Source: Craspedostauros australis (taxonomy: Eukaryota > Bacillariophyta > Bacillariophyceae > Mastogloiales > Achnanthaceae). Taken from it: a stretch of 64,000 nt of DNA. The position numbers and the translations under genes were made by a program. The notes below the pieces were generated by a model that was not told the DNA's origin, did no database searches, and saw only the letters and a list, made by a program, of their open reading frames with translations. Positions 21,282 through 47,432 of the stretch are shown here, piece by piece; the first letter of the stretch is position 1; each line of letters starts with the position of its first letter. The stretch covers positions 372,001 to 436,000 of the forward strand of contig JAMXDE010000034.1 in the NCBI GenBank assembly GCA_026770025.1, written 5' to 3'.

Positions 21282-24200
21282 TCATTCGAATGTTCTTGAT
21301 GTGTCAAGGTATGACTTCTCATGTTCGCGTTGTAAGTCGGCCTTGATGTTCTTGGTGAATCCGTCGCTTGTGTTCTGTTCGGATTTGACGAAAATGATTT
21401 CGATGGTTTTGTTGATTACCATGTTCCTCACGTAGTGATGGCGCATGTCGATGTGCCGCGATCGTTGGGATGTTGATGGGTTCTTGGCGATGAAGATCGC
21501 TCCGATGTTGTCCACGCGGACCTTGATCGGTGTCTTCACTGGGACGCCCACACTTTCGAGTAGCTGCATGACGAAGAAGATTTCCTTTGCCGCTTCGGAA
21601 AGGGCAACGTATTCTGCTTCGGATGAGCTGAGTGTGACAGCCTTCTGTGCCTTGGATCGCCAAAGGATTGGTACCTTGCACAGATATAGGATGAACCCTC
21701 CTACGCTGATTCTCGTGTTCTTGTCTCCTGCATATTCGCTATCGCAGAAGAGCTCCATGTCCCAGCCATCGTCGTCTGGACGCGCTGGATGGATCTTCAA
21801 TCCATAGTCCTTTGTATCGATCACATACTTGATGATCCGATACATCTCCTTCATTGCGGCTTTGGTGGGCCCGATCAATACCTTGGAGAGTTCCCTCACA
21901 GGGTTCGCGATATCTGGTCGCGAGTGCTTGATGAGGAAGAGTAGCATACCGACGCCTCGGCGGTATTCGGCATGTTCTTCCGGTTCGACCTTCTGCAGTC
22001 CGTTATCTTTGGATGGTCGTACAATGATTTGGCCCAGGGTTCCCAGTGTCCCATAGCGTTGCATCTTCTCAACCTTAGTTCCGAACTCTTTGATGAGGTG
22101 TTGGATGAGATGTGGTTGACGCAATGTCGCTCTAGTCTTGTCATGGTTCAGTTCGATGTTGCAGCTGAGGTAGTCTCCGAGTCCGCGCTCGATTGTCACC
22201 TTGAATTTGCTGCCTTGGATGTCCTTCAGGAATGTCTCCAGTGCCTTGGAGTCTCCGCAACAGAAGCAATCGTCCACGTAGATGGCCACGATCATGCTTC
22301 CTTCATTCGTCTTCCTGTAGAACAGGCACGGGTCTGCTGCGCTCTGTTCGAAGTTGATATTCTTGAGGGTCGATACCAACATCTTGAACCATTGCCTGGC
22401 GCTCTGTACAAGTCCGTAGATTGGCTTGTGTAGGGTCAGGGCTTCGTCTGGTTGATGATCCATCCCATTGGGACAGTTCATGTAGATCTCCTCGTCGAGG
22501 TCTCCGTGTAGGAATGCTGTTACGACATCGACGAGTGTGCAGTCCATCTTCTTGATCAGCATGATCACCATCATGACCCGATAGGTCACGTCATGGATGA
22601 CGGGTGAGTAGTGCTCTTGGAAGTTCACTCCTGCGACTTGTGAATAGCCACATGCAACGAGTCACGCTCGATGTGTGCTGTCGCGTTTCAGCTTGAAGAC
22701 CCATTTGCATTTGCAGCATCTGCGGCCGCGTGGAATGGCGTCTCGTTTGATCTTGCTGTACACCTTGCGTGTATCCATGGAGTCGAACTCTTTTTTGATG
22801 GCTGCTCGATATCCCTTCCGATGGATAGAATCTGGGTGATTGAAGGCTCCGTCGAACGTTGTAGGTTCGATGTGCTTCTCTGGTTCCTTGTTCTCGTCCT
22901 GCATCGACAATCCGATGTCGATCGCTGGTCTCTCGGTGATGATTGCATTCATCCCGTATAATCCAGTTGTGCTATGGTGAGTGATCTCGATCTCATCATC
23001 TTCGTCTTCGATTTCTTCATCATCTGTAGTTTCATTGTTGGAATCATCGATCATCTCGTCGCTGAGTTCGTCACTCGCCTCATTGGATGATGGATCGCTC
23101 TCATAGCCTTCTTCCTTTCGACCTTGTTCGTTGAAGTCTGCGAGCTCACGCAGAGCTCTGGGAATACTTTTCCCTGCAGTTGACTTGGAATTAGTTTCTC
23201 CCTTCCTGCCTCGTGATTCGTGACGTCGGATCCTCTCCTTTCTAGCTATGTCGCGCTTGCTTGGTTTGCTTGGTGGAGGTCTGGATGGTGTGTCATGTGT
23301 ATACCTTGCTGGTGTGTTCGGAGGGGTGACGCCTGTGTCATCGTCGGCTTCGTCGCCGGAAGGTAGGATCTCGTCATCATCATGATTGGATTCACTCCGA
23401 TCCTCCTCGTCATTCTGGATTAGTTGAGTCACTACTCCGTCGTCCTCATTATCCTCATCATCGCTGTCTGATAGGATGTAGTACCTGTTGCTGTCAGCGA
23501 AAGATACTCTCTTCGCTTCCGATGTTTGACGCGTTGCCGTCCTTGGCGTTGCTCCCTTCCGTCCGATAGTTGTGAAGCCGTCTGTGTCCGATGTTCCTGT
23601 TTTGTTGGATATGTTCGGTGCTGGTGACCAGCCACGGAACTGTCCGTATGATTGATTGAGCCACTTGATGTCCCGTGAACAGATGAGTGACTTGGTGGAT
23701 GGTCTGCACATGTTGTAGACCCCTGATGCATGTTGGTGTGCATATCCGATGAACACCATCTCTTCTCCTCTATTCTTGAGTTTGGCGGTGATCCCGCCGT
23801 AGGTAGTCTTCACAACACCCACCTCTCCAAACGTGCGGAGTGCATCCGCATATGGTGGATCGTTGCCGAAGAATTGGCGATATGGTGACTCTTTCTGATT
23901 CTTCGCTACGATGATGTTGGCGATGGCGGTGGCAGTGCTAGCAGCTGCTGCCCACAGGCCATGCCTATACTCTTCGTCGAGCTGTGCTCCGTTGAGCATG
24001 GAACGGATCTTGGTGTAGAGGTACGCGAACTTGCGTTCCACTCTGCCGTTCTGTTGTGGAGTATTCGATGCCGTGAATTCGAATTTCATGTTCAGTCCTG
24101 CATCGATGAGAATATCCTGTGTAGATTTGTTCTCTCCGCTGTTGTCACCTTGGAAGATGATCTGTTGGTCACCAGTCTGTGACTTGATTGTTTGGATGAA

Positions 24201-26292
24201 TCGTTTGATGTACCCTGGTTGATCACTTTTGTTCTTGAGAAAGAAACTCCAGCAGTGATCCGTGCAGTCGTCCACGATCAGGGTCCAGTAGCGTTTATCT
24301 CCAAAGCTTATGTGTTTAGTGTAACTAATGTCAATGAAGAGACGTTCGCCGCGGCGAGTGGCTCTTGGAATTGTCGCTTTCGAGATGTTCTTCACTCTTG
24401 CGTTCGCGACCGCGCAGTCGCGACACACTGGCATCTCGCCGACGATTTTCCATCCGTATTGGGCGGCTGTCCGCTTCATGGTTTCGAGTGGCGCGTGGCC
24501 GAGCATTCGATGCAAGTTCACCGCGCTGATCTTCTTGGATGGATTCTTGATGATGGCTGTGCAAGCCTTGTCGTCGTTCGTTGGCATGATGGGATGCATC
24601 TGCACTCCCGTGATGAATCCATTGGATGTGGGGAAGACTCGGTCGAATATGATCTTCGTTCCGGATCCGTTGATGATGTCCATCAGAATGCCGTTGTTAC
24701 CAAGCTGGTAACCGTTGTACAGAGGCTTGTTCGTGGAGAAAAGGTTCACCACCATTTTCGGTGTGTACTTCACGTCATCGAGCCGGATGATGTGGCCAGT
24801 GTTGTTTCGTTGCTTGACCTTCAAGCGAATGGATCCCATTTTGGGAGAGTCCAGCTTCGTGCTGTCTCCCACTTGGACGAATGACTTGATGTGCCGCACG
24901 TTGAAGAGAGCGGCGTCTGAATTGACGATGTGACACGAGGCTCCGCTGTCGGCGAGCCAGGTGTTCTTGTTGACCTTGTCCTTGTGCTTGGTGCTCAGCT
25001 CGTGGAGTTGCTCCACAGCTGCCGCAGCTATCTCGTCGTTGAAGCTGCCGTCATCGTCGTCTTCGTGAACTCCATCTTCGTTGTATGGATTGTGATGTTC
25101 CTTGTCATCCATGTTGTCGGGTAGTTGTGCGTAGTCCGATGGAATCGTGCTGTTGCGATGTGATCCTGTGGCTGGATCGTAGGGGTTGACTCGTGGTCGT
25201 TCGCGTAAGAGTACGCGCATGCATCCTCCAAGGATGTAGTGTAGATCCGTCTCTGGGATCGTCTCTGTCTCGTTCGCTTCGAGTATGCGGTTGATCACAA
25301 CTGAATTGGTCAGAATCTCTTCGATCGATCTGAAGTTTTCGGATAGGATCGATCCCATCATGTTCACCCATATTGGTCTGAGTACTCCTCGTTCGATTCC
25401 TGAGAACAGTTTCACTCCTGCTTCCATCACTGCATCGAAGATGAGTTGCTTCTGGATCACCAATGCTGTCTCTGTTGCATACGGGACGGTGTCATGACGA
25501 TGGAGGTAGTTGGACCTGTTGGGATCCTCGATTGGTGGGAAGTCGATGTTCCCTGGGTAGACGACACGCTCGTTTGGATTGAAGCTGTCGTCTGGATGAT
25601 TGCTGTCCTCGGATTCGTCGCTGTCATCCTCGTTGAAGATGCCCGATCTGTTGTTCCCCGCCGCTGGAGGAGGCGGCGCCGCGCCGCGGTTCGTTTCGCC
25701 TTGGCCTCGATTAATGAAGGTCCCCGTTCTCTCGTATCTCCCAGCTTGAGGAGGAGGCAACTCGTCGCGGTTCGCCTCGTCGTCTTCATCTGCGCCGTCC
25801 TCGTTGGTGTCGTCGTCGTCTTCGCTCATTGCCTCTTCGATGTCGCTATCGATGGCCTCGCTGTCCATCTCAGCTCCGTCGCCGTATGAACTGATCAGGT
25901 TGTGCGCGTTGAAGCAGCATTCGTAGCTCACTTCGCGTCTTGGATCCACCTCGTGGATGATGGGCTCTTCGCTGAGCCACTCCGGGACGATCTCATCGTC
26001 CTGCACTTCGTCGTCACTTCCGACGCACTCGAAGTTATCGAAGAAGGAGTCGTCAATGTAGTTGTCGGACACCAACATGCAGAGCGGCATGTCCTTCGCC
26101 GAGAGTACCATCTCGTGCCCGCTCTTGTCGTGTCCTTTCGTTGTTGTGTTGACCTGTTCGTCGGTCTTCTTCTTCTCGTTGAGCTTCTTCTTTCGGCACT
26201 CCGCCTCGCGGTGTCCGAAGATGCCACAGTAGTTGCATTTCCCGTTGAAGCCGCTTCCTTTGTTGCGATTGTTGTTGCGCTTTCCGTTCATC

Positions 26293-26325
<33 letters not shown>

Positions 26326-27557
26326 TTCTTGTTGTTCGATTTCTTGCGTTCTGGACAATCGGCGGATCTATGACCATACACGCCACAGTTGTGGCAAGTA
26401 CCCTTGAAGTTACCGGTGCTCGTGAAGCCAGTGTCGTTGCTCTTCGCATTGCTATCTTGGAAATCGTCGATGTACGCCTTGTCTCCTTGATGAGTGGCGT
26501 GTGCTGTGCGGAGTACTCCTCTGATCGCATTGATGGTGACCACTTCCGGATTGAACGTGAGTTGGTGTTGGAAGTTCACGATGTGAGTTCTGTACTCGTT
26601 GCTCACCGTGCTGAGGATTTGCATGATCATTTCCTCGTCCGTGATCTTGTACTTGACATCGTGGAGACGCGATCGTAGACCCTCGAGTCGCATGATGTAG
26701 ATGTCGGGGTCTGTGTCTCTCTTCATCTTTTCGTTGTTGAATTGGCGCTTGAGTTTGATTTTCGTCGCTGCATCGGATGGTCGAAACTTCTCCGCGAGAA
26801 CGTTCCACGCTGCGTGTGGATCTCCTTCGGGGTAGTCGTCGGAGACGCATTGGTTGATGTATTGGATGGCCTGCTTGCCTTTTCCTTTCTCTGCATCCAT
26901 CATGAGGATCAGATCACTGAAGCAGTCGCATCCCAGTTCGTAGATCTCCTCCATCGCTTCCTTGGCTTCACCGGCGGCTGCCGCGATCTCGCTCACTGTT
27001 GGCACCTTGGTGTTGCCCAACATCACGTCTCTCGTCTTCTGTGTACGAGCGTATGCCTTCGCTTGGGACTCCCATGCGCTGTAGTCTTCCTGTTCACCGC
27101 TGAACATCGGCGCCTTGATACGTCGCTTGTTCATGTTGGCTGATGTCGCCATGTTGATTCGTTGTTTCGTTATTGGTGCGCTCGCGCCCTTGATTTCCGT
27201 TTGTTTCTGTGTTGTCGATTCTTCGATTTTCGCCTGTTGTTTCGCGGAGATTGTTTTCGTCACAAATTCTCCTCCTGGTGGTGTCTCACTTTTACCACTT
27301 CGTTTGGCTGTGCGAATGCTCTCCGTCACACCAGTCTCCTCTTGCTTGATCGTCTTGAGGATCCTCTCCTTCTCGCAATGTTGCCTTGCAGACCGTTCTT
27401 CTTTGGTCTCGTCGATAGCGCTTGCCTCTGCGCCTGATAGGACAGTAGCCGCAGCTGCTTCCTTCTCTTCTCGTGGTGGAGTCTCACTCGCACCTTCTTG
27501 TCTCTTGATAGTCGGATTGGACAGAGGGACGTCTCTCAATTCCTCTTCCTCGCTCAT
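21282..27557 (-). CDS. E1 Gag-Pol polyprotein, interrupted by one in-frame TGA
   Basis: The ATG at 27555-27557 opens a 1631-codon frame that stops at TGA (22662-22664); the same frame continues without another stop to 21282. Gag has two CCHC knuckles at residues 388-401 and 441-454, separated by a poly-Asn run encoded by AAC repeats. A long acidic, variable region follows (about 560-830). Protease DSGAS is near residue 870, the integrase HHCC domain near 1015-1043, and the catalytic D, D, E near 1075, 1137 and 1175. The TGA falls in reverse transcriptase between THRA and LVACGYSQ, where relatives have arginine. Downstream are AFLHGDLDEEIYM, IYVDDCFC and RNase H ending in SDGFTKNIKADL. E2 shares the same TGA. 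It is either a dead element or one with stop-codon readthrough. Confidence 0.88.
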
Positions 27558-27638: not shown

Positions 27639-28434
27639 TGTTGGCAAGTACTGCTCACAGTAACCTACGATTGTGGAAGATGGTGTTGGTTGATAGTTGT
27701 TCGTTTGCTATTTCATTAGTTGGCTACTCCGATCCTCTTGGTGTACGCCGTTCTCTTGCCCGATGCTCTTGGTGCTTCAATCTGTTTCGTAGATTTGGTC
27801 TCCGACTATGAGTCGGTGTGCGAGATGCTCTCTTGCTCCTCTCTGTATTCTCTCTCTCTGTCTCAACATCGTGTACTCGTGGTACACGATACTCCGTGTT
27901 CGATACGTACTCCGCATTCCACATTCTGTTCATTCAGTACTGGCTCCTATTCCATGAGTACTCGCCATTTGAAGTTCACCTTCTGTATCCATGATGCTGA
28001 TGTCCTTCGGTCATCGGATCTTCGCCTCCTGCTCTGACTTGGAGACAGATGTCGACGTGGTGACATGATGACATCCTGTCGACGTCAGTAGGTGTCCTTC
28101 TGCTCTCCAGATGTCACGTTCCATTGGTGATGCAGTAGTCTGTCAGATGATATCGTCATCTGAGGTTTAGTTGGGAAGTACCTCGAGATTCTCTTGGTAC
28201 CATTGATGGATGGACGGACGATCTTCCAATTCTCTCAGAAATCGTCGATTGCAAATTTCCTCCAGAAATCTTGCCCCTTTTTGTGTGTTCCGTTTCCCCT
28301 GTAATTCTGACGAATCACAGCATACTATCGACACGAGTATAGTTATACCGTCCAAGTGCGTATGAGAGAATAGCGGGTGAACGATGCACATATACACGTA
28401 CATCTTGACATATACTCACATGTACATCTCGCCA
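27639..28434 (-). repeat. 5' LTR of E1
   Basis: Plus strand from tgttggcaag to about catctcgcca, where the other LTRs have catctcgaca. The region compared with the 5' LTR of E2 (first 140 bp from the inner end) showed no difference. The frame of F starts at 28435. Confidence 0.85.
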
Positions 28435-30583
28435 GCAGAGGCCGTAACGGAGGCAGAGGCAAAGGCCGTGGCTTCAAGGGCAACTGTCACTACGGTGGGA
28501 TTGCCTACCATCGAGAGTCAGAATGCAGAAAGAAGAAATACGACGAGCACATGAAGAAAGAACAAGAAAATGCAAACATGACTCGCGACTCGAGCGACAA
28601 AGACTCGAACGACATCGTCTTTACGATGATCGACGAACCATACTGTGTGAAGGGAACAGGGGAGATCAACAACTCCTTCTTTGACTCCTTCACCTACTCC
28701 AGCGAACCCGAAGAAGTCCACGATGACAACTCCACCCCTGATTGGCTGCAGGAACCAATCATCCACGAGGTGGATCCCAGCCAAGGCCTCGACTTCGACT
28801 TCAACTTCGAGTTCTGCATGAATGCTCAAGACGATTCAGATGAAGAAGAAATGGGCGGCGACACCAACGAGAGCGACAGTCGCGCAGCGACTGACCATCG
28901 TCCCAACAGAAGACGAGGCATCTTCGATGAGACCGACAGCGGCTCAGAATCGAGTGCATCCAACTTCGACGTGGATGGCTCGCAGAGCAACATCGAACCA
29001 GACGAGGATTCGGCATCAGACAACGACAACCACAGCAACAACGATGCCACTTTCAACCCTAACGAGAGGGTCCAATACCCAACGCAGGTGATCCTCGGAT
29101 CCCTTGCGCCGTACTTTGAGCAAGGACGGACCGGCCGACACCAGATCCTCCCGGATCCGAGTCCAACCGCCAGGACTACGCAGCGACAACACATCGCAAA
29201 TGCAGCATTCGCCGTGGCAATGTACCTCTTCCCAGACAACCCAGGGAACCAGAGCGACTGGATGAGCAACATGGTCTCGCTCTTCACAGCGGCAGGATTG
29301 TTCTCCATCGAACACATCCTAGCGAACGGCGCCTTCCTTCCCGACATCTTCGAACTACGAGGAATCCAGAGAATGGCTGACCTCGAGCACCACCTCATCC
29401 TAGGCAGCTGCATGGCTGAGCTACTTGTACAACGACCGCATCCACAACATGGGATGGCGTTGAACCCAGACCAAAGTCAAGCCGAAGACCAGAACAATAT
29501 GGACATCAACCACGCCATCGATGACATGGCCATCATGGCGATTGGCAATAACCTTCGAACTGTTGGACCAAGAGACGCACCCGATGAACACACATGGCTA
29601 GCTGACAGTGGCGCATCGTGCCACATCACAAACTCGGACAAGGGGATGTTCAACATCCGCCACGTTAAGTCGCATGTGAGAGTTGGCAACAACACCCAGT
29701 TGAGCTCACCGAAGATCGGTTCGATGCTCCTGGAAGTCACACAGAAGGACAACACGAAAACAACGATTCGCCTTGATGATGTGAAGGTCGCACCAAAAAT
29801 GTGGGTGAATTTATTCTCCACCAACAAGGCCCTGCAAAAAGGGTACCGGATCAACAACAACGGAATCATCATGAACATCGCGAAGAACAAGGGAAATCGA
29901 ATCGTGTTCGACCGTGTGTTCCCGACGAAGAATGGTTTCATCACCGGAGTGCAGATGCGGCCAATCAACCCGAACAATGACGTGGCCGCACTATCCATCG
30001 TGTCTAGCAACAAGCAGACAATCAATGCCACGACACTTCACCGTATCCTCGGACACGCACCACTTGCAACTATCAAGTGTACTGCAGCCAAATATGGATG
30101 GAAGATAATCGGAGATCTGCCCACGTGCCGCGATTGCGCCACTGCGAATGCGCGCGTGAAGAACCTGGCCAAGGCGACCATTCCAAGAGCAACAAAGAGC
30201 TTCGAACGGCTCTTCATCGACATCAGCTACACCAAGCACACGAGCTTTGGGAACAAGAGGCACTGGATACTGGTCGTCGACGACCACACCGACTTCGCAT
30301 GGAGCTTCTTCACCAAGAACAAGAGCGACCAACCAATCCACCTCAAGACACTCCTCCAACAGATGAGTCCCCACATCAAGGACCATCGAGTGATCTTCCG
30401 CGGGGACAACAGCGGAGAGAACAAAGCAACAGAGGCCCAGCTGATCGAAGCCGGCCTCAATGTGTCATTCGAGTACACCGCTCCCAACACTCCACAGCAG
30501 AATGGGAGAGTCGAACGCAAGTTCGCATACCTTTACATGAAGGTACGGTCCATGCTGAAAGAAGCACAGTTGAACGAAGAGCT
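28435..30583 (+). pseudogene. Element F: zinc knuckle, protease and integrase, truncated by E2
   Basis: The coding frame enters from the E1 LTR without a start of its own. It encodes a basic Gly/Arg stretch, a knuckle whose second cysteine is lost (CHYGGIAYHRESEC near 28482-28523), an acidic region, protease ADSGASCHI near 29600, the integrase zinc-binding segment HRILGHAP...CRDC (about 30040-30138) and the catalytic core with IDIS, RGDNSGE and GRVERKFA (about 30218, 30402, 30510). It stops at 30583 at the E2 LTR. Reverse transcriptase and RNase H of F are absent. It is similar to E1/E2 throughout but clearly a different copy or subfamily. Confidence 0.9.
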
Positions 30584-31351
30584 GTCGAGATGTACATGTG
30601 AGTATATGTCAAGATGTACGTGTATATGTGCATCGTTCACCCGTTATTCTCTCATACGCACTTGGACGGTATAACTATACTCGTGTCGATAGTATGCTGT
30701 GATTCGTCAGAATTACAGGGGAAACGGAACACACAAAAAGGGGCAAGATTTCTGGAGGAAATTTGCAATCGATGATTTCTGAGAGAATTGGAAGATCGTC
30801 CGTCCATCCATCAATGGTACCAAGAGAATCTCGAGGTACTTCCCAACTAAACCTCAGATGACGATATCATCTGACAGACTACTGCATCACCAATGGAATG
30901 TGACATCTGGAGAGCAGAAGGACGCCTACTGACGTCGACATCTGTTTCCAAGTCAGAGCAGGAGGTGAAGATCCGATGACCGAAAGGCATCAGCATCATG
31001 GATACAGAAGGTGAACTTCAAATGGCGAGTACTCATGGAATAGGAGCCAGTACTGAATGAACAGAATGTGGAATGCGGAGTACGTATCGAACACGGAGTA
31101 TCGTGTACCACGAGTACACGATGTTGAGACAGAGAGAGAGAATACAGAGAGGAGCAAGAGAGCATCTCGCACACCGACTCATAGTCGGAGACCAAATCTA
31201 CGAAACAGATTGAAGCACCAAGAGCATCGGGCAAGAGAACGGCGTACACCAAGAGGATCGGAGTAGCCAACTAATGAAATAGCAAACGAACAACTATCAA
31301 CCAACACCATCTTCCACAATCGTAGGTTACTGTGAGCAGTACTTGCCAACA
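30584..31351 (+). repeat. 5' LTR of E2
   Basis: Starts TGTCGAGATGTACATG and ends CTTGCCAACA. Shorter than the E1 counterpart because about 27 bp are missing near 30932-30944, between two gtcgacgt-type direct repeats that are both present in E1. Otherwise matches the 5' LTR of E1 closely. Confidence 0.9.
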
Positions 31352-31432: not shown

Positions 31433-32664
31433 ATGAGCGAGGAAGAGGAATTGAGAGACGTCCCTCTGTCCAATCCGACTATCAAGAGACAAGAAGGTGC
31501 GAGTGAGACTCCACCACGAGAAGAGAAGGAAGCAGCTGCGGCTACTGTCCTATCAGGCGCAGAGGCAAGCGCTATCGACGAGACCAAAGAAGAACGGTCT
31601 GCAAGGCAACATTGCGAGAAGGAAAGGATCCTCAAGACGATCAAGCAAGAGGAGACTGGTGTGACGGAGAGCATTCGCACAGCCAAACGAAGTGGTAAAA
31701 GTGAGACACCACCAGGAGGAGAATTTGTGACGAAAACAATCTCCGCGAAACAACAGGCGAAAATCGAAGAATCGACAACACAGAAACAAACGGAAATCAA
31801 GGGCGCGAGCGCACCAATAACGAAACAACGAATCAACATGGCGACATCAGCCAACATGAACAAGCGACGTATCAAGGCGCCGATGTTCAGCGGTGAACAG
31901 GAAGACTACAGCGCATGGGAGTCCCAAGCGAAGGCATACGCTCGTACACAGAAGACGAGAGACGTGATGTTGGGCAACACCAAGGTGCCAACAGTGAGCG
32001 AGATCGCGGCAGCCGCCGGTGAAGCCAAGGAAGCGATGGAGGAGATCTACGAACTGGGATGCGACTGCTTCAGTGATCTGATCCTCATGATGGATGCAGA
32101 GAAAGGAAAAGGCAAGCAGGCCATCCAATACATCAACCAATGCGTCTCCGACGACTACCCCGAAGGAGATCCACACGCAGCGTGGAACGTTCTCGCGGAG
32201 AAGTTTCGACCATCCGATGCAGCGACGAAAATCAAACTCAAGCGCCAATTCAACAACGAAAAGATGAAGAGAGACACAGACCCCGACATCTACATCATGC
32301 GACTCGAGGGTCTACGATCGCGTCTCCACGATGTCAAGTACAAGATCACGGACGAGGAAATGATCATGCAAATCCTCAGCACGGTGAGCAACGAGTACAG
32401 AACTCACATCGTGAACTTCCAACACCAACTCACGTTCAATCCGGAAGTGGTCACCATCAATGCGATCAGAGGAGTACTCCGCACAGCACACGCCACTCAT
32501 CAAGGAGACAAGGCGTACATCGACGATTTCCAAGATAGCAATGCGAAGAGCAACGACACTGGCTTCACGAGCACCGGTAACTTCAAGGGTACTTGCCACA
32601 ACTGTGGCGTGTATGGTCATAGATCCGCCGATTGTCCAGAACGCAAGAAATCGAACAACAAGAA

Positions 32665-32697
<33 letters not shown>

Positions 32698-35600
32698 GAT
32701 GAACGGAAAGCGCAACAACAATCGCAACAAAGGAAGCGGCTTCAACGGGAAATGCAACTACTGTGGCATCTTCGGACACCGCGAGGCGGAGTGCCGAAAG
32801 AAGAAGCTCAACGAGAAGAAGAAGACCGACGAACAGGTCAACACAACAACGAAAGGACACGACAAGAGCGGGCACGAGATGGTACTCTCGGCGAAGGACA
32901 TGCCGCTCTGCATGTTGGTGTCCGACAACTACATTGACGACTCCTTCTTCGATAACTTCGAGTGCGTCGGAAGTGACGACGAAGTGCAGGACGATGAGAT
33001 CGTCCCGGAGTGGCTCAGCGAAGAGCCCATCATCCACGAGGTGGATCCAAGACGCGAAGTGAGCTACGAATGCTGCTTCAACGCGCACAACCTGATCAGT
33101 TCATACGGCGACGGAGCTGAGATGGACAGCGAGGCCATCGATAGCGACATCGAAGAGGCAATGAGCGAAGACGACGAAGACGCCGACGAGAACGGGTCAG
33201 ACGAGGACGCCAACGAGGATGGTGCAGACGAAGACGACGACGATACCACCGGAGACGAGGGGAACCGCGCCGAGGTGCCACCTCCCCCAGCAATTCGGAA
33301 CGAGAGAATGGGCATCTTCGATGAAGAGGACAGCAACGAAGCTGAGGACGGTCCAAGCGATGCGTTCAATCCTTATGAACACGTCGTCTACCCAATTCGA
33401 ATCCAATTTCCACCGGAGCCAAATCCCAGAAGAGTCGACGACATCTACCTACTCCAGGCCTTCCCGGAACCAACGGTCACTGCAAAGCGAATGCAGAAGT
33501 AGCTAATCTACGACGCGGTTCTAACAGCTGCATTACCGATGTTCCCAGGGTTCGTGAACAAACAATTGAGATACATTTGGGTGAACATGGTAAGCACCAT
33601 CCTATCCGATAACTTCAAATCGATTGAAGAGATCCTCGCAAATGCAGCCATCCTCAACAGACTACTGCAAGCAAACGAAGAAGACGAACTCTCTGAACTA
33701 GACTTGCACTACGTGCTCGGAGGATGCATGCAGGTGCTCCTGCGCGAGCGACCACGCGTCACACCATATGACACGGTCACCAGAGTTCATCGAAACAGCA
33801 CAGTACCAGCGCACTTCGCTGAGCTACCAAGCGATGACGAGATGGATGAGAATCACAATCCATACAACGAAGATGGAGTGCATGAAGATGAAGAAGAAGA
33901 TGGCCTCATGGATGAGATGGCCACAGCCGCCGTGGAGCAACTCCACGAGTTGAGCACCAAGCACAAGGACAAGGTCAACAAGAACACCTGGCTCGCCGAC
34001 AGTGGAGCCTCGTGTCACATCGTCAATTCAGACGCCGCTCTCTTCAACGTGCGGCACATCAAGTCATTCGTCCAAGTGGGAGACAGCACGAAGCTGGACT
34101 CTCCCAAAATGGGATCCATTCGCTTGAAGGTCAAGCAACGAAACAACACTGGCCACATCATCCGGCTCGATGACGTGAAGTACACACCGAAAATGGTGGT
34201 GAACCTTTTCTCCACGAACAAGCCTCTGTACAACTGTTACCAGCTTGGTAACAACGGCATTCTGATGGACATCATCAACAGATCCGGAACAAAGATCATA
34301 TTCGACCGAGTCTTCCCCACATCCAATGGATTCATCACGGGAGTGCAGATGCATCCCATCATGCCAACGAACGACGACAAGGCTTGCACAGCCATCATCA
34401 AGAATCCATCCAAGAAGATCAGCGCAGTGAACTTGCATCGAATGCTCGGCCACGCGCCACTCGAAACCATGAAGCGGACAGCCGCCCAATACGGATGGAA
34501 AATCGTCGGCGAGATGCCGGTGTGTCGCGACTGCGCGGTCGCGAACGCAAGAGTGAAGAACATCTCGAAAGCGACAATTCCAAGAGCCACTCGCCGCGGC
34601 GAACGTCTCTTCATTGACATTAGTTACACTAAACACATAAGCTTTGGAGATAAACGCTACTGGACCCTGATCGTGGACGACTGCACGGATCACTGCTGGA
34701 GTTTCTTTCTCAAGAACAAAAGTGATCAACCAGGGTACATCAAACGATTCATCCAAACAATCAAGTCACAGACTGGTGACCAACAGATCATCTTCCAAGG
34801 TGACAACAGCGGAGAGAACAAATCTACACAGGATATTCTCATCGATGCAGGACTGAACATGAAATTCGAATTCACGGCATCGAATACTCCACAACAGAAC
34901 GGCAGAGTGGAACGCAAGTTCGCGTACCTCTACACCAAGATCCGTTCCATGCTCAACGGAGCACAGCTCGACGAAGAGTATAGGCATGGCCTATGGGCAG
35001 CAGCTGCTAGCACTGCCACCGCCATCGCCAACATCATTGTAGCGAAGAATCAGAAAGAGTCACCATATCGCCAATTCTTTTGCAGCGATCCACCATATGC
35101 GGATGCACTCTGCACTTTCGGAGAGGTGGGTGTTGTGAAGACTACCTACGGCGGGATTACCGCCAAACTCAAGAATAGAGGAGAAGAGATGGTGTTCATC
35201 AGATATGCACACCAACATGCATCAGGGGTCTACAACATGTACAGACCATCCACCAAGTCACTGGTCTGTTCTCGCGACATCAAGTGGCTCAATCAATCAT
35301 ACGGACAGTTCCGTGGCTGGGCACCAGCACCGAACATATCCAGCGAAGTAGGAACAACGGACGCAGACGGCTTCACAACCATCGGACGGAAGGGAGCAAC
35401 GCCAAGGACGGCAACGCGTCAAACATCAGAAGCGAAGAGAGTGTCTTTCGCTGATACCAATAGATATCACATCCTATCAGATAGCGATGGTGAGGACAAT
35501 GGAGTAGTGACTCAACTAATTCCAACGACGAGGAAGATCGAAGCGAATCCAATCATGAGGATGACGAGATCCTACCATCCGGCGACGAAGCCGACGATGA

Positions 35601-37632
35601 CACAGGCGTCACTCCTCCGAACACACCAGCAAGGTATACACATGACACACCATCCAGACCTCCACCAAGCAAACCAAGCAAGCGTGACGTGGCTAGAAAG
35701 GAGAGAATCCGACGTCACGAATCACGAGGCAGGAAGGGAGAAACTAATCCCAAGTCAAATACAGGGAAGAGCATTCCAAGAGCTCTGCGTGAGCTTGCAG
35801 ACTTCAACGAATGAGGTCGAAAGGAGGAAGGCTACGAGAGCAAGTCACCATCCGATGAGGAGATTGACGACTCCAACAACGAAACTACAGATGACGAAGA
35901 AATCGTAGACGAAGAAGAAGAGATTGAGATCATCCATCATGGCACAACAGGACTATACGAGATGAACGCAATCATCACCAACGCACCAGCAATCGACATC
36001 GGACTGTCGATGCAGGACGAGAACAAGGAACCAGAGAAGCACATCGAACCAACGACATTCGATGGAGCCTTCAATCATCCAGATCCCATCCATCAAAAGG
36101 GATATCGAGCAGCCATCAAAAAGGAGTTCGACTCCATGGATACACGCAAGGTGTACAGCAAGATCAAACGAGACGCCATTCCACGCGGCCGCAGATGCTG
36201 CAAATGCAAATGGGTCTTCAAGCTGAAACGCGACAGCACACATCGAGCGTGACTCGTTGCATGTGGCTATTCACAAGTCGCAGGAGTGAACTTCCAAGAG
36301 CACTACTCACCCGTCATCCATGACGTGACCTATCGGGTCATGATGGTGATCATGCTGATCAAGAAGATGGACTGCACACTCGTCGATGTCGTAACAGCAT
36401 TCCTACACGGAGACCTCGACGAGGAGATCTACATGAACTGTCCCAATGGGATGGATCATCAACCAGACGAAGCCCTGACCCTACACAAGCCAATCTACGG
36501 ACTTGTACAGAGCGCCAGGCAATGGTTCAAGATGTTGGTATCGACCCTCAAGAATATCAACTTCGAACAGAGCGCAGCAGACCCGTGCCTGTTCTACAGG
36601 AAGACGAATGAAGGAAGCATGATCGTGGCCATCTACGTGGACGATTGCTTCTGCTGTGGAGACTCCAAGGCACTGGAGACATTCCTGAAGGACATCCAAG
36701 GCAGCAAATTCAAGGTGACAATCGAGCGCGGACTCGGAGACTACCTCAGCTGCAACATCGAACTGAACCATGACAAGACTAGAGCGACATTGCGTCAACC
36801 ACATCTCATCCGACACCTCATCAAAGAGTTCGGAACTAAGGTTGAGAAGATGCAACGCTATGGGACACTGGGAACCCGGGGTCAAATCATTGTACGACCA
36901 TCCGAAGATAACGGACTGCAGAAGGTCGAACCGGAAGAACATGCCGAATACCGCCGAGGCGTCGGTATGCTACTCTTCCTCATCAAGCACTCGCGACCAG
37001 ATATCGCGAACCCTGTGAGGGAACTCTCCAAGGTATTGATCGGGCCCACCAAGGCCGCAATGAAGGAGATGTATTGGATCATCAAGTATGTGATCGATAC
37101 AAAGGACTATGGATTGAAGATCCATCCAGCGCGTCCAGACGACGACGGCTGGGACATGGAGCTCTTCTGCGATAGCGAATATGCAGGAGACAAGAACACG
37201 AGAATCAGCGTAGGAGGGTTCATCCTATATCTGTGCAAGGTACCAATCCTTTGGCGATCCAAGGCACAGAAGGCTGTCACACTCAGCTCATCCAAAGCAG
37301 AATATATTGCCCTTTCCGAAGCGGCAAAGGAGATCTTCTTCATCGTGCAGCTACTCGAAAGTGTGGGCGTCCCAGTGAAGACACCGATCAAGGTCCGCGT
37401 GGACAACATCGGAGCGATCTTCATTGCCAAGAACCCATCAACATCCCAACGATCGCAGCACATCGACGTGCGCCATCACTACGTGAGGAACATGGTAATC
37501 AACAAAACCATCGAAATCATTTTCGTCAAATCCGAACAGAACACAAGCGACGGATTCACCAAGAACATCAAGGCCGACTTACAACGCGAACATGAGAAGT
37601 CATACCTTGACACATCAAGAACATTCGAATGA
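31433..37632 (+). pseudogene. E2 Gag-Pol, with several inactivating changes
   Basis: The ATG at 31433 opens a frame identical to E1 for about the first 580 residues, including both CCHC knuckles. The acidic region then diverges (about 33165-33925), after which similarity is again near-complete from VEQLHELSTKHKDK through protease and integrase. Lesions against E1: TAG at 33500-33502 (CAG in E1), a frameshift near 35520, a stop near 35812 in the restored frame, and the shared TGA at 36250-36252. The last part (36286-37632) encodes reverse transcriptase with IYVDDCFC and RNase H, ending at SYLDTSRTFE. This copy cannot make a full polyprotein. Confidence 0.93.
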
Positions 37633-41123: not shown

Positions 41124-41375
41124 GTCCAACGTCTGTGGAAGCAATGAGAGAATGGCGCTTGGAATAGTATCCGACAGCGATAATGGCTGTAGTGGTGGCG
41201 GCAACAAACCGAGTCGTTGCCGTCTGCTTCTGCAATCACCCGCTGTTTATCCGTGTAAGGCTATCTCTTTGTGCAAGGATTGCGTTGTAAGGATGTATCA
41301 GGCTCTCTCCGTGATGCAATGTAGCAGCATGCAATGGCATGCAATGACATGGAAGAAGAGGTTGCGAAGGAATAC

Positions 41376-41457
41376 GAGCCCCCCGAGTGAGTCGATCAAG
41401 ACTTTGAAATAGACCTCGCAACTTTTTTCCTGCGATTTCAAAACTAAGTACATATTC
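41376..41457 (+). repeat. Left terminal inverted repeat of the DNA transposon
   Basis: Outer 27 bp are identical to the inverse of the right end; the remaining 55 bp match in blocks. Preceded by atac (41372-41375). Confidence 0.88.
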
Positions 41458-43226
41458 CCAATCCTCGTAGATCTAAAACATATACCAATCCATTCCAGAT
41501 CTGAGGTTGGCCGTATTTTAAGTTTTATGGACCGATGGATGTGCGCATTTTTCGATCTCTTTCGGGTTTCAGCTGTTTGGCTACGACTACATCGATCCAA
41601 CTTAACCCTTTGCTGTTCTTTGTTTCAGCAAGGTTGTTCCCATTTTGAATTGTTTAGTCTCTTTTTCAGGCGTTCCGATCAGAGCATCCAACACCCTGTC
41701 CACGATAGCGCTAGTTGTAGAGTTCTGGGAGAAGCGGCGGGTGCGCGTTTACGTCCAATCTACTCTGTGCGTGTCCAATCCGTCGTCGACGTCAGCAAAC
41801 TGGCTGCTGCGTCATGAACCACCAATCACAGCACGATGTGCTAGGTTCTCACCAATGCCTTGTTGTGGTGGAATGGTTGAGTGAGGTTGGTACTCTCGAA
41901 GTGTTTTGTGTCATGCATTTTTCGTACGTGCGTTGCAATGTTTGACATTTACCTCAGCCCCCAGGATGCCCGACTGGCCGAGAGCGCCAAACTCGACACA
42001 AGAAGATGACAATGGCGGAACACCAAAAAAACATCACAATGGACACCCAACGGCATCGTCAGCGCCGCACCAACCAGCGGCCCAATGAAAAATCCAAGCA
42101 CATCTCCGTCACCACCATGCAACCCTTGGTGGGTGGACGAGCGGAGGCTGCGAGAGCGGTTGATTTGGGGCCGCCGCAGGCCTCCGCGCAAACGTCTCAA
42201 AATTGCGGCAGATTGGCTCGTTGGATGTAGCCTGTGTATTCCATGCACAGGCCACACCAACACCTGCGAATGGGCAAGACGCATCCAGGAGGTCACCATC
42301 AAGGTCCCCACGAAGTTTGAGGCTCGGGAAGGACCGGGAAGGTGTCCGCGCGGAGGAATCAGTGGAGGGCAAGAGTTTTGTTGGGCGGATCGTGGCGAAC
42401 CTGCCATGTGACTTTGGCAGTGAGGGGGCAGCATCATCAAGCTGCCCAATCTCCAAGTCACCCATACAAGACCCGCGCGTCATCGCCTGAAGATGCACGT
42501 CGCGAAGTTCGAGCTGCTGCAACGGTCTGGAAGAGGCTGCGGCATCGAATGAGTGCATACCTGTCATTTTTGGTGGGGCACCGAAAACCAACAGGGCCAT
42601 CACCAAATGGAGGTGTGCCATCGGGACCATCCACACCCAGCCCAGTCTGGATGCATCAGCATGTCGCCAGGTAGTGTGGGAATGCACGAGGGTCACGTGG
42701 AGGGGCTGAAAGGGTCCTGTGGATGAGATATGGATCCGTATCCATACCGCATCCGGCTTGCACTTCGTTTTTTGAAATCTTTCTTTTTCAGTGTATCAAC
42801 ACTTTGGGGTGTGCAATGTGGCAGAAATGTTCTGTCCTTCATGGAGTGGATAGCTGGGGAGCATACAGAGCCATTGTGGTGCGCAGTTTGAAGAAATACA
42901 ACGATGATGATGATGATCATGGGTGCTGAGGGGAGGGCAACATTGTGCCATCCAGAATTTTTCGAATTCACCACACAACTGTGTGGTGGTCAAACATGAC
43001 AATAAAAACAATTTCTATGTCAATTTAACTTTGATATTCTGTATAACCTATAGTCAGGCGTCTGAATGCAATGTTTAGATTTAATTGCAAACGATGTGTT
43101 GTTGAGATATAGCATGACAAGCAGATATTGGATGTGTTTTTTGGATGGCCTCTAGACTCGTTGTAGTAGCATGGTCTGCCACCCACAAAACTCCACAACT
43201 CGTGTTATCGCGGCGATGCACATCCA
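41458..43226. other. Transposon interior without a recognised gene
   Basis: The stretch 41940-42680 is more GC-rich than its surroundings and has overlapping open frames on both strands (for example minus 42109-42696, plus 42006-42230 and 42342-42674), none with a recognisable motif. It could be a second, decayed gene of the element or captured DNA. The rest is AT-rich and looks non-coding. Confidence 0.4.
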
Positions 43227-46200
43227 TCACAAAATTTCCATCCCATCATCCAACACAGCCTCACTTTCTGTGTTGGCCTTCAGTGTGTCAGCATCACACC
43301 ACATCTGATGATCCAGCTCCTCCTCCTCTCTCTGCAACTCCTTCTCTGTTCGTTCCTCCTGTGTTTCAGCTGGCGCATAGTGGGTCGCCACGATTGCAGA
43401 TGCTGTTGCTTTGCTTGTTGGGTTGGTGTTGGTGTTGGCTTCCGCCTTGATGAGAGCGGCCTCCTTCTTGTCCTTGCGTTGTTTGGCGTTGTACGCTGCA
43501 GACAGCGACGCTTTCACGCGCATGGGATTTGCGTGCAGTTGTACGTACCAGTCAGTTTTGGTTCTTTTGTTGGCCATCAATTGTTCGTGTGCTTCGTGTT
43601 CGGATGGCCTGTTTTTTGGGTCCTTCGCGGACGCTTCACTGATGTCCTTCAACTTGTCCGCGATGTAGTCTGGTAGTTCCGCTGGTTTGCGTGTTGTTTT
43701 GCTCGCCCAGCCTGGCACTGCGAGTGGAGGGTGTTCGGTTTCGGCGGTCTGGTCTTGTAGCGCTGTGGTGTGATCGGATGGTAGATGTTGTTGTCCGTCT
43801 GCGATGGCTTTGCCGAACGCCAGCCCCTTGCTCTCTGCCGCTGTGCGCCCGAGTTTTCGCGTCTTGTCCGTCTTCCTGAACGATTCGGATGTTATCGGCA
43901 GCTTGTCGGACTTGTGTGTGTGAACATCGGCAACGCCCAGCTGGTTGATGATCCAGCCGTCCCATTCAGCGCTCTTCACAAGGACGTCTTCCGTGATGCC
44001 AGATGCAGCCACCAACCGCGCCTGGTCATCATCATACTTCACCTCGTGAGTCTGACGTACCTGTTGCCCGTTCGCACGGAATCGTCGTTTGGGTGCGCCA
44101 GGAAGCGCGGTGATGTTGCCTTGGAGGGACGACGCGTTGACCAGTACCGTGGTGGTACCCGCGATGTCACCGGCTTTCAGTGCAAGGAAGAGTTGGAACG
44201 GGGTCTTGATGTCCTTGCCACTTTGCACGTATTTTCGCAGTACACGTGTGATGTACGCGAAGTGGGTGTCCAGCATGCTCTTACCAGTTTGGGCCTCTGT
44301 GTAGATCCACGCGATGATTTTGGCTGCTTTTCGTGTCACAAGGTTCTTGTTGAGTACCGATGTGATGAGCGCGATGTGCTCGTGACTGGAAAAGCAACAC
44401 GCGTTATCGCTCTGTAGGATGATCTCAGTCACGGATGGGAGAATGTCTTTGACCGTTTTTTGCAGGATGTCAAGTAGTCCACCAACTTGAAGTGTGTCTT
44501 GTGTCGGTCTTCCGCCGACCACAATGTCAATGAACTGATAAGTAAAAATGTCGTTGCGACACGTGATGACCATCGCCCCAAGCAGTGACATTCCCTTCTT
44601 CCCCCAATATTCTTGTTGGGCTTCGCTTTGGCCTGTCGGTAGAATTTTTTGCTTATGGTCAAGTACCACATAGGCTCTTTCAGGCTTATCATTGAGTTCG
44701 GATTGATAAAAGGCGATTTGTCGGAATTGAACTTTTGCACGCACTTTGTGAGCCATGTAGTTAACAATTTCGTTGGCGAATCCCGGCGCTGCCGCAAGCA
44801 TGGATTGCAATTCGTCCTTGTGTTCTGCGAGTTCGTTGTCCTTAAGCATTGTGACAAAAGGAACGAAACGATCATTCACAAATCGCATTGCTGATCCACA
44901 ACGGTTGCATACTTTACGTGGTTGTTCGGTTGTGGTGGTGGGAGGAATGTCAATTGTGATGGTTGGAGTGTCGTTTGTGATAGCAGTTTTCTTCTTGCAC
45001 TTGCGCTTGTTGGTGCGTGGTTTGCGTTGATTGGTTGATGTGGTTGGTGCCTTCTTCTTCTCCTTTTTGGTGGTGAGAGCGAACGCGGCCGAATGCATGG
45101 GGTCGTCACACTGAAGCTGCATGTGCGACGCGGTGAATTCCCATTTGAGGAACACAACAAGCAGCTCGAGCGCATGCAAGAGGGAATGGGCTGTGCGTAC
45201 ATGATGTGCGATGACGTCATCTGGCTCATCGGTATCGTTGTGGCTCCTGTCATTGGCATCGTTTTGTTCCTCCCCATCAGTTTCATACTTAGCCTTCAGT
45301 AGGTCTACTAGGCGCGAAATTGCCTGTTTGAGTTTCTCCGTCGCCATCCAGAAGTAACTCTCGAAGGAAGAGAGGCCCGTCTTGATCTTGCTTTTGCGTG
45401 TTAGTAGGTTGGTCATGGTGGTGAAAGCAGGCATTCCCACTGGGCAGTTGGTCGTAGACGAGTACATGTCGAATAGTTGTTCGATAGTCGTGCTTCCTCG
45501 ATCGAACACCGGAACATTTTCAAATACAACTCCACCATACTGTACCGTGTGACTCAACCCTGCCTTATATGTAGTAGTTGTCATGAGGAAGGACACCACG
45601 CCAGACAGGTCGCAAGCACACACACGGTACTGGAGAACTCGCTGTGGAATGCTTTCGCCATGGCTTAACATGTCGTAGTAACGACGCAAGGTGTATGTCT
45701 GGCTGGGTGTGATGATGTCGCGTTTGGCAAGCATGCGAGCCTTCTGTTCCTCCGACAGTCCATGTGTGTGCCTACCCAGAATAGCAGTACACAGTGCAGA
45801 CGGTGCAGACATGGCCAAAGCAACTCTTGCCGTGCGGGAAGAAGAAGATTCTCCGAGCAAGCAGAGGGTGTAGAGGTTAGATGCCAACATCGTGGGAGGA
45901 AGCTCCACGTTCCCGCGCACGTATGCAATCACCTGTTCCATCTGACGAGTTGGCACATTCTCTTCTGGAAGCAGGACAGTCCAAAGTGCAGATGATGTGA
46001 CACTCCACATCAGTTTGATGTAGCTCCAGATGGTCCGTTCGTGTCGGCCCGCGAGGACAAATCCTTTTTTTGGCATGAGCTGCAACAGTTTTGGATCTAG
46101 GTTAGATCTAAGCGCTGCCATCACACGAACAATGGCATGGCGCCTCCAGTTTCCCCCCTCCTCTTCCTGATCATGCCCGAACTCGCCTCCTCTCCTGTCC

Positions 46201-46856
46201 CAGCCAGCGCGCGCCTGTTTTTCGTCCTCGTCAACGTACGTACTGTCGCTGTCAATAGACGGATCTGCGTACCCCCCGGCAACAACAGTGTTGCAACGCC
46301 GGGGAACCCTCCCTGGCGGGGTAGGCTCGACAGGTGGTGCAACGTCGGCTGCAGTAGGCGAGGGTGGCGCGTTCACGATAACGCTCACCAAAGTCCCATC
46401 GCCGACACCTCGTCCCTCCGAACGCACCTCGACATGGGAGTCGTCGAAGACGCCTCCGTTGTCGTTGAGGATGTGGACGAACACATGCAGCTCGCGAGCG
46501 TGCGCATGCGTGCTGTTCGGGACGAGGTTGCCATCCGCTGCATGCATCGGTTTCACATCGATCACTCGTGTGATGGTGCTCTGCCTCCCCAATACAGCGA
46601 ATGGCTTGTCAGGCAACAGTTGCTCAGAGGCTGGCAGCAGGGCCCCCTTGGAGTCGAATGGGTGAGCAGGCATGGGGTGAGCAGAACACAGCTTCTTACG
46701 AGGAGAGGGGTTGCCATCCTTGGGGAGGGCTTTGTCAGCAGCAGAGGTAGGCATGGTGGAGTTGTTGCTGGAGAGTAGTGCTGTTTGCTTGTTGGATGTG
46801 ATGAACTGGTCTGAGAGGAAGTGAGGTAAGGAGAGCACAGGATGAAGGCCGATCAT
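43227..46856 (-). CDS. Transposase-like protein with a DDE-type domain (1209 aa)
   Basis: Uninterrupted frame from ATG 46854-46856; a second ATG at residue 35 (MPTSAADKALPK) is a possible start. The first ~240 residues are low-complexity. A CxxC pair (C650, C653, KVCNRCG) follows a Lys/Thr-rich linker. Then come VLDHKQKILP with D733, QEYWGKKGMSLLGAMV, LQSDNACCF with D817 and WIYTEAQTGKSMLDTHF with E854. The order D...D...E and the segments WxGKxG and EAQxGKxxxD recall uncharacterised metazoan and algal proteins read as DDE transposases; this similarity is from memory. Its position between terminal inverted repeats with a target duplication supports a transposase role. No frameshift is seen, so the protein may be functional. 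Confidence 0.75.
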   Translation of the reverse strand: MIGLHPVLSLPHFLSDQFITSNKQTALLSSNNSTMPTSAADKALPKDGNPSPRKKLCSAHPMPAHPFDSKGALLPASEQLLPDKPFAVLGRQSTITRVIDVKPMHAADGNLVPNSTHAHARELHVFVHILNDNGGVFDDSHVEVRSEGRGVGDGTLVSVIVNAPPSPTAADVAPPVEPTPPGRVPRRCNTVVAGGYADPSIDSDSTYVDEDEKQARAGWDRRGGEFGHDQEEEGGNWRRHAIVRVMAALRSNLDPKLLQLMPKKGFVLAGRHERTIWSYIKLMWSVTSSALWTVLLPEENVPTRQMEQVIAYVRGNVELPPTMLASNLYTLCLLGESSSSRTARVALAMSAPSALCTAILGRHTHGLSEEQKARMLAKRDIITPSQTYTLRRYYDMLSHGESIPQRVLQYRVCACDLSGVVSFLMTTTTYKAGLSHTVQYGGVVFENVPVFDRGSTTIEQLFDMYSSTTNCPVGMPAFTTMTNLLTRKSKIKTGLSSFESYFWMATEKLKQAISRLVDLLKAKYETDGEEQNDANDRSHNDTDEPDDVIAHHVRTAHSLLHALELLVVFLKWEFTASHMQLQCDDPMHSAAFALTTKKEKKKAPTTSTNQRKPRTNKRKCKKKTAITNDTPTITIDIPPTTTTEQPRKVCNRCGSAMRFVNDRFVPFVTMLKDNELAEHKDELQSMLAAAPGFANEIVNYMAHKVRAKVQFRQIAFYQSELNDKPERAYVVLDHKQKILPTGQSEAQQEYWGKKGMSLLGAMVITCRNDIFTYQFIDIVVGGRPTQDTLQVGGLLDILQKTVKDILPSVTEIILQSDNACCFSSHEHIALITSVLNKNLVTRKAAKIIAWIYTEAQTGKSMLDTHFAYITRVLRKYVQSGKDIKTPFQLFLALKAGDIAGTTTVLVNASSLQGNITALPGAPKRRFRANGQQVRQTHEVKYDDDQARLVAASGITEDVLVKSAEWDGWIINQLGVADVHTHKSDKLPITSESFRKTDKTRKLGRTAAESKGLAFGKAIADGQQHLPSDHTTALQDQTAETEHPPLAVPGWASKTTRKPAELPDYIADKLKDISEASAKDPKNRPSEHEAHEQLMANKRTKTDWYVQLHANPMRVKASLSAAYNAKQRKDKKEAALIKAEANTNTNPTSKATASAIVATHYAPAETQEERTEKELQREEEELDHQMWCDADTLKANTESEAVLDDGMEIL

Positions 46857-46859
46857 TCA

Positions 46860-46919
46860 GCAACAACAACAACAACTACTACTACTACTGCTACTACTAC
46901 TACTACTACTACTACTACT
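46860..46919. repeat. Trinucleotide microsatellite upstream of the transposase-like gene
   Basis: A (CAA)n run passes into a (CTA)n run with one ctg interruption, directly upstream of the ATG on the minus strand. A further 14-bp period repeat (gtgttttgtgtgat, three copies) lies at about 47031-47075. Confidence 0.85.
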
Positions 46920-47346
46920 CTGACAAGAACGGGCATTGAGCGAAAGAGCGAGTGTGCATGCCATTGGCGAGGAAAGTTGTGAAACGGAGCGAAAGTGTGG
47001 CGCGATTTTGCAAAATGATGGGGATGATGTGTTTTGTGTGATGTGTTTTGTGTGATGTGTTTTGTGTCATGTGTTATGTGACGAGCAGAATGTGGAATCA
47101 TGCGCCACATGCTAACGTGTAATTAACGTGTACCAAACGACTGAGACCTTCGGAAGCAAGTTCGTGACTGATCACCAGACGATAAATACTTGAGAACATC
47201 ATCGAACCTTCGGCAGAAACAAACGAATTTTGTGCTGTTGGATTCACGCGACTAGACTAAACACATTGATTGATCCATAAAACTTAAAATGAAACTAACT
47301 ACAATCTGAAAGGTTCCATTATACATAAAGAGACTACAAGGACTTC

Positions 47347-47428
47347 GAATATGTGCTTAGTTTGAAAATCCCAGAAATCCGATTAGACTTTTCATTTCAA
47401 GGTCTTGATCGACTCACTCGGGGGGCTC
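47347..47428 (-). repeat. Right terminal inverted repeat of the DNA transposon
   Basis: Inverse counterpart of 41376-41457, same length, followed by the target duplication atac (47429-47432). Confidence 0.88.
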
Positions 47429-47432
47429 ATAC

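Follow-up and report, generated by a model that had tools for sequence, protein, structure and literature searches.

How should the 6-kb segment with inverted ends in the diatom Craspedostauros australis be classified, and does it behave as a mobile element? It lies at positions 41376–47428 of a 64,000-nucleotide stretch of contig JAMXDE010000034.1 (positions 372,001 to 436,000; hereafter the window), spans 6,053 bp and carries a single large open reading frame. From the letters alone, the initial annotation had taken it for a complete, mobile DNA transposon with 82-bp inverted ends, a 4-bp ATAC duplication and an intact 1,209-codon gene. Comparison across the genome supports its mobility through shared ends, target-site duplications and an empty site found in sister elements. 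We consider it very probable that the segment is a cut-and-paste DNA transposon that is autonomous and has been active recently, and that its single protein, of probably 1,175 amino acids, is a DDE/D (RNase-H-fold) transposase.

Ends, target sites and copies

The left end (41376–41457) and the right end (47347–47428) agree at 63 of 82 positions, with the first 27 all matching, much as first described. The inverted similarity runs past 82 bp, up to a common 16-mer at position 141 from the left end and 140 from the right; judged by this alignment, the terminal inverted repeats (TIRs) extend to about 156 bp rather than 82 bp. The genome searches covered an assembly of 74.8 Mb in 90 contigs, in which the window element is G000:C32:413376-419428. 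Among 40 ends taken for alignment 31 were distinct (7 left, 24 right), and all 31 start with GAGCCC, the terminus that had been read in the window; three further ends start with GAGCCA, and one more (L057) is altered.

Three stretches of the ends are best conserved, their spacing being kept in the 31 distinct ends: an outer box at positions 1–22 (GAGCC..AGYGAGTCGAYC, also written GAGCC...AGYGAGTCGA, in which positions 7–10 vary by subfamily), a middle box at 66–90 (AAACYAAGYACATATTC..AATCCT) and an inner box at 140–156 (TTTTAAGTTTTATGGA). All 22 further ends that were scanned, many of which are also among the 40, carry the inner 16-mer at position 140 or 141 and match it in 15 or all 16 of its bases. 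These boxes are candidate binding sites for the transposase. In the interval from the transposase start codon to the right end, the window element also has repeated ACT/CAA triplets and a tandem repeat of 14 bp, TGATGTGTTTTGTG (window 46851–46919 and 47011–47080).

The ATAC reported on both flanks is present immediately outside the two ends (Table 1). Eighteen copies with both flanks and recognisable ends could be paired, and every one of them has an exact 4-bp duplication; a 5-bp duplication fits in none of the 18. The form N-TA-N precedes all 36 ends of these paired copies. Copies for which the sequence of a single end was available were left out of the pairing, as were four in which an end was unavailable or went unrecognised where expected (C30:321652-327768, C19:777001-783030, C7:1885936-1891949 and C2:1702601-1708649, the last with one end altered). 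At L026, near position 876, two elements of different subfamilies apparently abut, with ATAT beside both ends, as if one had entered the duplication of the other.

One copy, C15:1147328-1162540, is nested in a sister element between two copies of GTAA, and is the only usable nested case among the empty-site candidates with repeat flanks. When its flanks are joined minus one GTAA, they form a 378-bp gapless block with seven uninterrupted sister ends (L018, L036, L031, L035, L027, L038 and L037), at 93.7–95.8% identity. Against the window element the joined flanks show 79.9% identity with 2 gaps, and the site there is a single GTAA. This empty site supports the boundaries of the element independently of the inverted repeats.

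Searching the genome with both ends and the protein, as the initial annotation had proposed, brought up multiple copies with the same ends and 4-bp duplications. The left 82-mer gave at least 40 scored matches, 10 at 96–100% identity, counting the window's own end, and 30 at 79–82%, several of the latter being right ends, and the right 82-mer also gave at least 40, of which 8 were at 98–100% (own included) and 32 at 83–94%. For the protein, 38 loci were scored among 560 first-look candidates (unverified as copies), 8 at 96–100% and 30 at 82–86% identity. Joined at a distance of 20 kb, the 38 protein loci together with 73 distinct ends make up at least some 65 regions spread over 33 contigs, a count that is likely low and could be slightly high where the ends of one element lie more than 20 kb apart. 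In three copies with matching duplications (C32:477651-497192, C27:24159-38384 and C15:1147328-1162540) the ends stand 14–20 kb apart, and other DNA has therefore probably been inserted into them.

The protein: selection, recent copying and candidate catalytic residues

In the window, the 1,209-codon open frame (43227–46856, minus strand) is intact, as the initial annotation stated, and only the length then assigned to the gene needs revision. Because the frame opens just 11 codons ahead of a conserved methionine in 13 of 30 fetched loci, translation probably starts at that methionine, the ATG of codon 35 (window 46754), which would give a protein of 1,175 amino acids. The long frame is open from a methionine to its stop in 28 of the 30 loci, the exceptions being L016, which is shortened at its 3' side, and L025, which is split by a stop.

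When the window copy is compared with the C39 copy, its nearest sister, synonymous divergence (dS) is 0 and nonsynonymous divergence (dN) is 0.0007 over 1,175 codons, and the flanks of the two copies differ. In the 21 other copy pairs that were compared, dN/dS ranges from 0.18 to 0.29; the protein has therefore been conserved while the family spread. It is under purifying selection, and copying is recent.

The candidate catalytic acids are D699, D783 and either E820 or D829, and a candidate zinc site formed by C616 and C619, together with C549 and H554 upstream, lies ahead of this core. With the exception of D783, which is replaced by asparagine in L030, L032 and L033, these residues are invariant in the 26 copies aligned (Table 1). 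As the 26 copies are very alike, such invariance is weak evidence for a role. We base the DDE/D assignment on the behaviour of the element, with its inverted ends and a duplication of fixed length, and on our reading of these motifs. Under this model, the transposase would bind the ends, of about 156 bp, via the outer, middle and inner boxes and excise the element, which would move by cut and paste and not by copying out. The element would then insert at N-TA-N in the target DNA; the join would be staggered by 4 bp, and repair would convert the stagger to a duplication of 4 bp.

The 1.5 kb beyond the stop codon (41730–43226) was aligned in 12 copies. Mean identity of 10 copies to the window copy is 67–89% per 100-column block, with few indels and no consistent codon phase. 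A second gene in this region was considered and rejected, since frames vary between copies and substitutions follow no codon phase; the region is probably non-coding. Parts of the region are almost the same in L017, L031 and L037 though the proteins of these copies diverge more, a pattern that by eye resembles gene conversion.

Placement among DNA transposons

Relatives of the protein were sought in collections from which eukaryote genomes and transposon libraries are nearly absent. The window protein matched no family in Pfam (E ≤ 10), nothing in PHROGs, NCBIfam or the phages, and no PDB entry in sequence and profile searches. When 15 copies were run against Pfam, ten scattered families were returned, the best being Ubiq_cyt_C_chap (E 0.017, in 4 of the 15), and these look like chance. 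None of the ten is a transposase or integrase family, a filter that a divergent integrase, such as a DDE domain of the Ginger/IS481EU type, could escape. Peptide patterns found no relative in viral contigs (protein, alignment and core) or in prokaryote contigs (core only), by a method that detects close relatives only. A degenerate search with a single motif gave no matches; a looser motif gave six contigs, none of them relative-like, five resembling phage primases by eye and the sixth a chance frame of 59 amino acids. The pattern C/DxxH, which hAT, P, MuDR, Kolobok and Dada have between the second D and the third acid, is not present between residues 784 and 828 of the window protein; this is relevant on condition that D783 is indeed the second acid.

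Several points weigh against a DDE/D cut-and-paste transposon. Profile and structure matches (Pfam, PDB, PHROGs, NCBIfam) lend no support to a transposase. Two single-sequence AlphaFold models are of low confidence, with predicted local distance difference test (pLDDT) scores of 36.9 and 43.5, and no RNase-H protein is among the matches listed from fold searches with the better model. Excision was not observed, and the empty site is known from sister elements, not from the same locus in another strain. Finally, the copies with asparagine at position 783 encode proteins 98.9–99.9% identical, have frames that are otherwise open and occupy three different sites; thus, either D783 is non-catalytic or these copies moved in trans. 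The latter could be extended to the whole family, with the long protein as a passenger, and the frame-broken copy L025 would also fit. However, no other long frame was found conserved, with the 1.5 kb beyond the stop codon checked in 12 copies, and the dN/dS values are at odds with a passenger, such that we regard movement of this kind as highly improbable and retain an autonomous element.

By anatomy the nearest described group is Sola, and we give an even chance to the element's being a member of it, as an ordinary diatom lineage beyond the reach of simple profile searches, which would refine rather than replace the reading as an autonomous DDE/D transposon. Sola elements, as described in PMC10741241, have a DDD transposase, a 4-bp duplication, TIRs of 11–1124 bp, variable ends and mostly a length of 2–9 kb. 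The element studied here, at 6.05 kb with one large protein, a 4-bp duplication in all paired copies and TIRs of 82 to about 156 bp, lies inside these ranges, and its size is like that of curated bivalve Sola1 elements, whose mean length is 5,445 bp (PMC10294476). The likeness is one of anatomy alone, drawn from descriptions of Sola rather than from Sola sequences, and the DDD triad is a candidate one here. The target also differs: Sola2 duplications quoted in PMC3627910 have the form AWWT, or consist largely of A and T (ATAT, AAAT or ATTT, for instance), and lack a fixed TA, unlike the N-TA-N of all 18 copies.

Other described groups share single traits with the element. Ginger1 resembles it in its 4-bp duplication, size (2.6–7 kb) and TIR length (40–270 bp), but according to PMC2836005 it starts with TGTNR, where the ends here start with GAGCC, and targets CCGG or CCGT/ACGG, found in none of the 18 pairs; nor did Pfam return an integrase match. 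In its ends and target, Ginger1 is thus a poor fit. Kolobok and piggyBac likewise duplicate 4 bp, but both use TTAA, which occurs in 0 of 18 pairs, and piggyBac ends are CC..GG as opposed to GAGCC; in target, neither fits. Mariner/Tc1 elements also have TA at the centre of their target, but they duplicate the 2-bp TA (PMC10741241), compared with 4 bp and a protein of 1,175 amino acids in this family.

Membership of Academ, or of another superfamily with 3–4 bp duplications that is thinly covered by Pfam, appears unlikely to us, as nothing positive points there, even though the lack of a Pfam match would be compatible with it. Academ duplications measure 3–4 bp, so the length seen here would be compatible as well. 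We are similarly doubtful that the family founds a DDE/D superfamily not yet described in eukaryotes, characterised by an N-TA-N target, a 4-bp duplication, ends that open with GAGCC and carry three boxes at constant spacing (1–22, 66–90 and 140–156) and a transposase of 1,175 amino acids with no detectable relatives. The constancy of the N-TA-N target in 18 of 18 copies, combined with the three-box ends, speaks for such a superfamily, as does the outcome of the searches: PDB, NCBIfam, PHROGs and the phages yielded no relative, Pfam none that is credible, and the patterns none in viral or prokaryote contigs. The near-absence of eukaryote genomes and transposon libraries from the collections counts against it. 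A similar D-x-K...E-x4-(F/W)-G-K-x-G spacing occurs in uncharacterised eukaryote proteins, which is a lead and not a result. A literature search for the N-TA-N target form found no paper, and among the titles and abstracts listed in searches on DNA transposon superfamilies and on Sola in diatoms none was recognisable as a description of this element, which is no proof that it is unpublished.

The DNA transposons of diatoms appear to have received little study. With its intact genes, its exact N-TA-N target of 4 bp and a sister copy that shows no synonymous change, this family is a candidate working transposon and a candidate source of tagging tools for microalgae. Once its transposase is placed, either Sola would gain an abundant diatom lineage or the list of superfamilies would grow by one.

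Feature coordinates and other observations

Table 1. Features of the element and its flanks, in window coordinates
Feature	Position	Strand	Basis
Left target-site duplication copy, ATAC (N-TA-N)	41372..41375	.	flank sequence read
Left TIR, through to inner box	41376..41531	+	end alignment
Left inner box TTTTAAGTTTTATGGA, position 141 from end	41516..41531	+	16-mer scan
Region 3' of gene, probably non-coding	41532..43226	-	copy alignment (compared part: to about 41730)
Putative transposase, 1,175 amino acids from conserved Met (open frame to 46856, 1,209 amino acids)	43227..46754	-	frame and copy comparison
D699, first candidate catalytic acid (VVLDHKQK)	44658..44660	-	D in 26/26 copies; putative role
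D783, second candidate catalytic acid (ILQSDNACC)	44406..44408	-	D in 23/26, N in 3/26; putative role
E820 to D829 (EAQTGKSMLD), either the third candidate acid	44268..44297	-	both in 26/26; putative role
C616-x2-C619, candidate zinc site ahead of core, with C549 and H554 upstream	44898..44909	-	26/26; putative zinc binding
Single GTAA, counterpart of target site hit in sister element by C15:1147328-1162540	47119..47122	.	empty-site alignment
Right inner box, same 16-mer TTTTAAGTTTTATGGA, position 140 from end	47274..47289	-	end alignment
Right TIR	47274..47428	-	end alignment
Right target-site duplication copy, ATAC	47429..47432	.	flank sequence read

The window also contains long frames that by eye are Copia-like (78–4808, 6665–12124, 21282–27557, 28377–30674 and 31433–37632), some of them forming inverted pairs with near-identical proteins.

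Elsewhere in the genome, the silicon-transporter (SIT) family PF03842 has 88 matches; in 32 of them, for example C32:150184-151785, the match extends over 480 or more of the 513 family positions (4 of the 32 have in-frame stops). Diatom genomes hold 3–8 SIT genes each according to PMC10328945, and uncollapsed haplotypes or pseudogenes may account for the excess. The light-harvesting family PF00504 has 61 matches in the genome, and the two families together make a diatom the most likely host. Among 14 control genomes, PF03842 matched weakly in one and PF00504 in one cyanobacterium.

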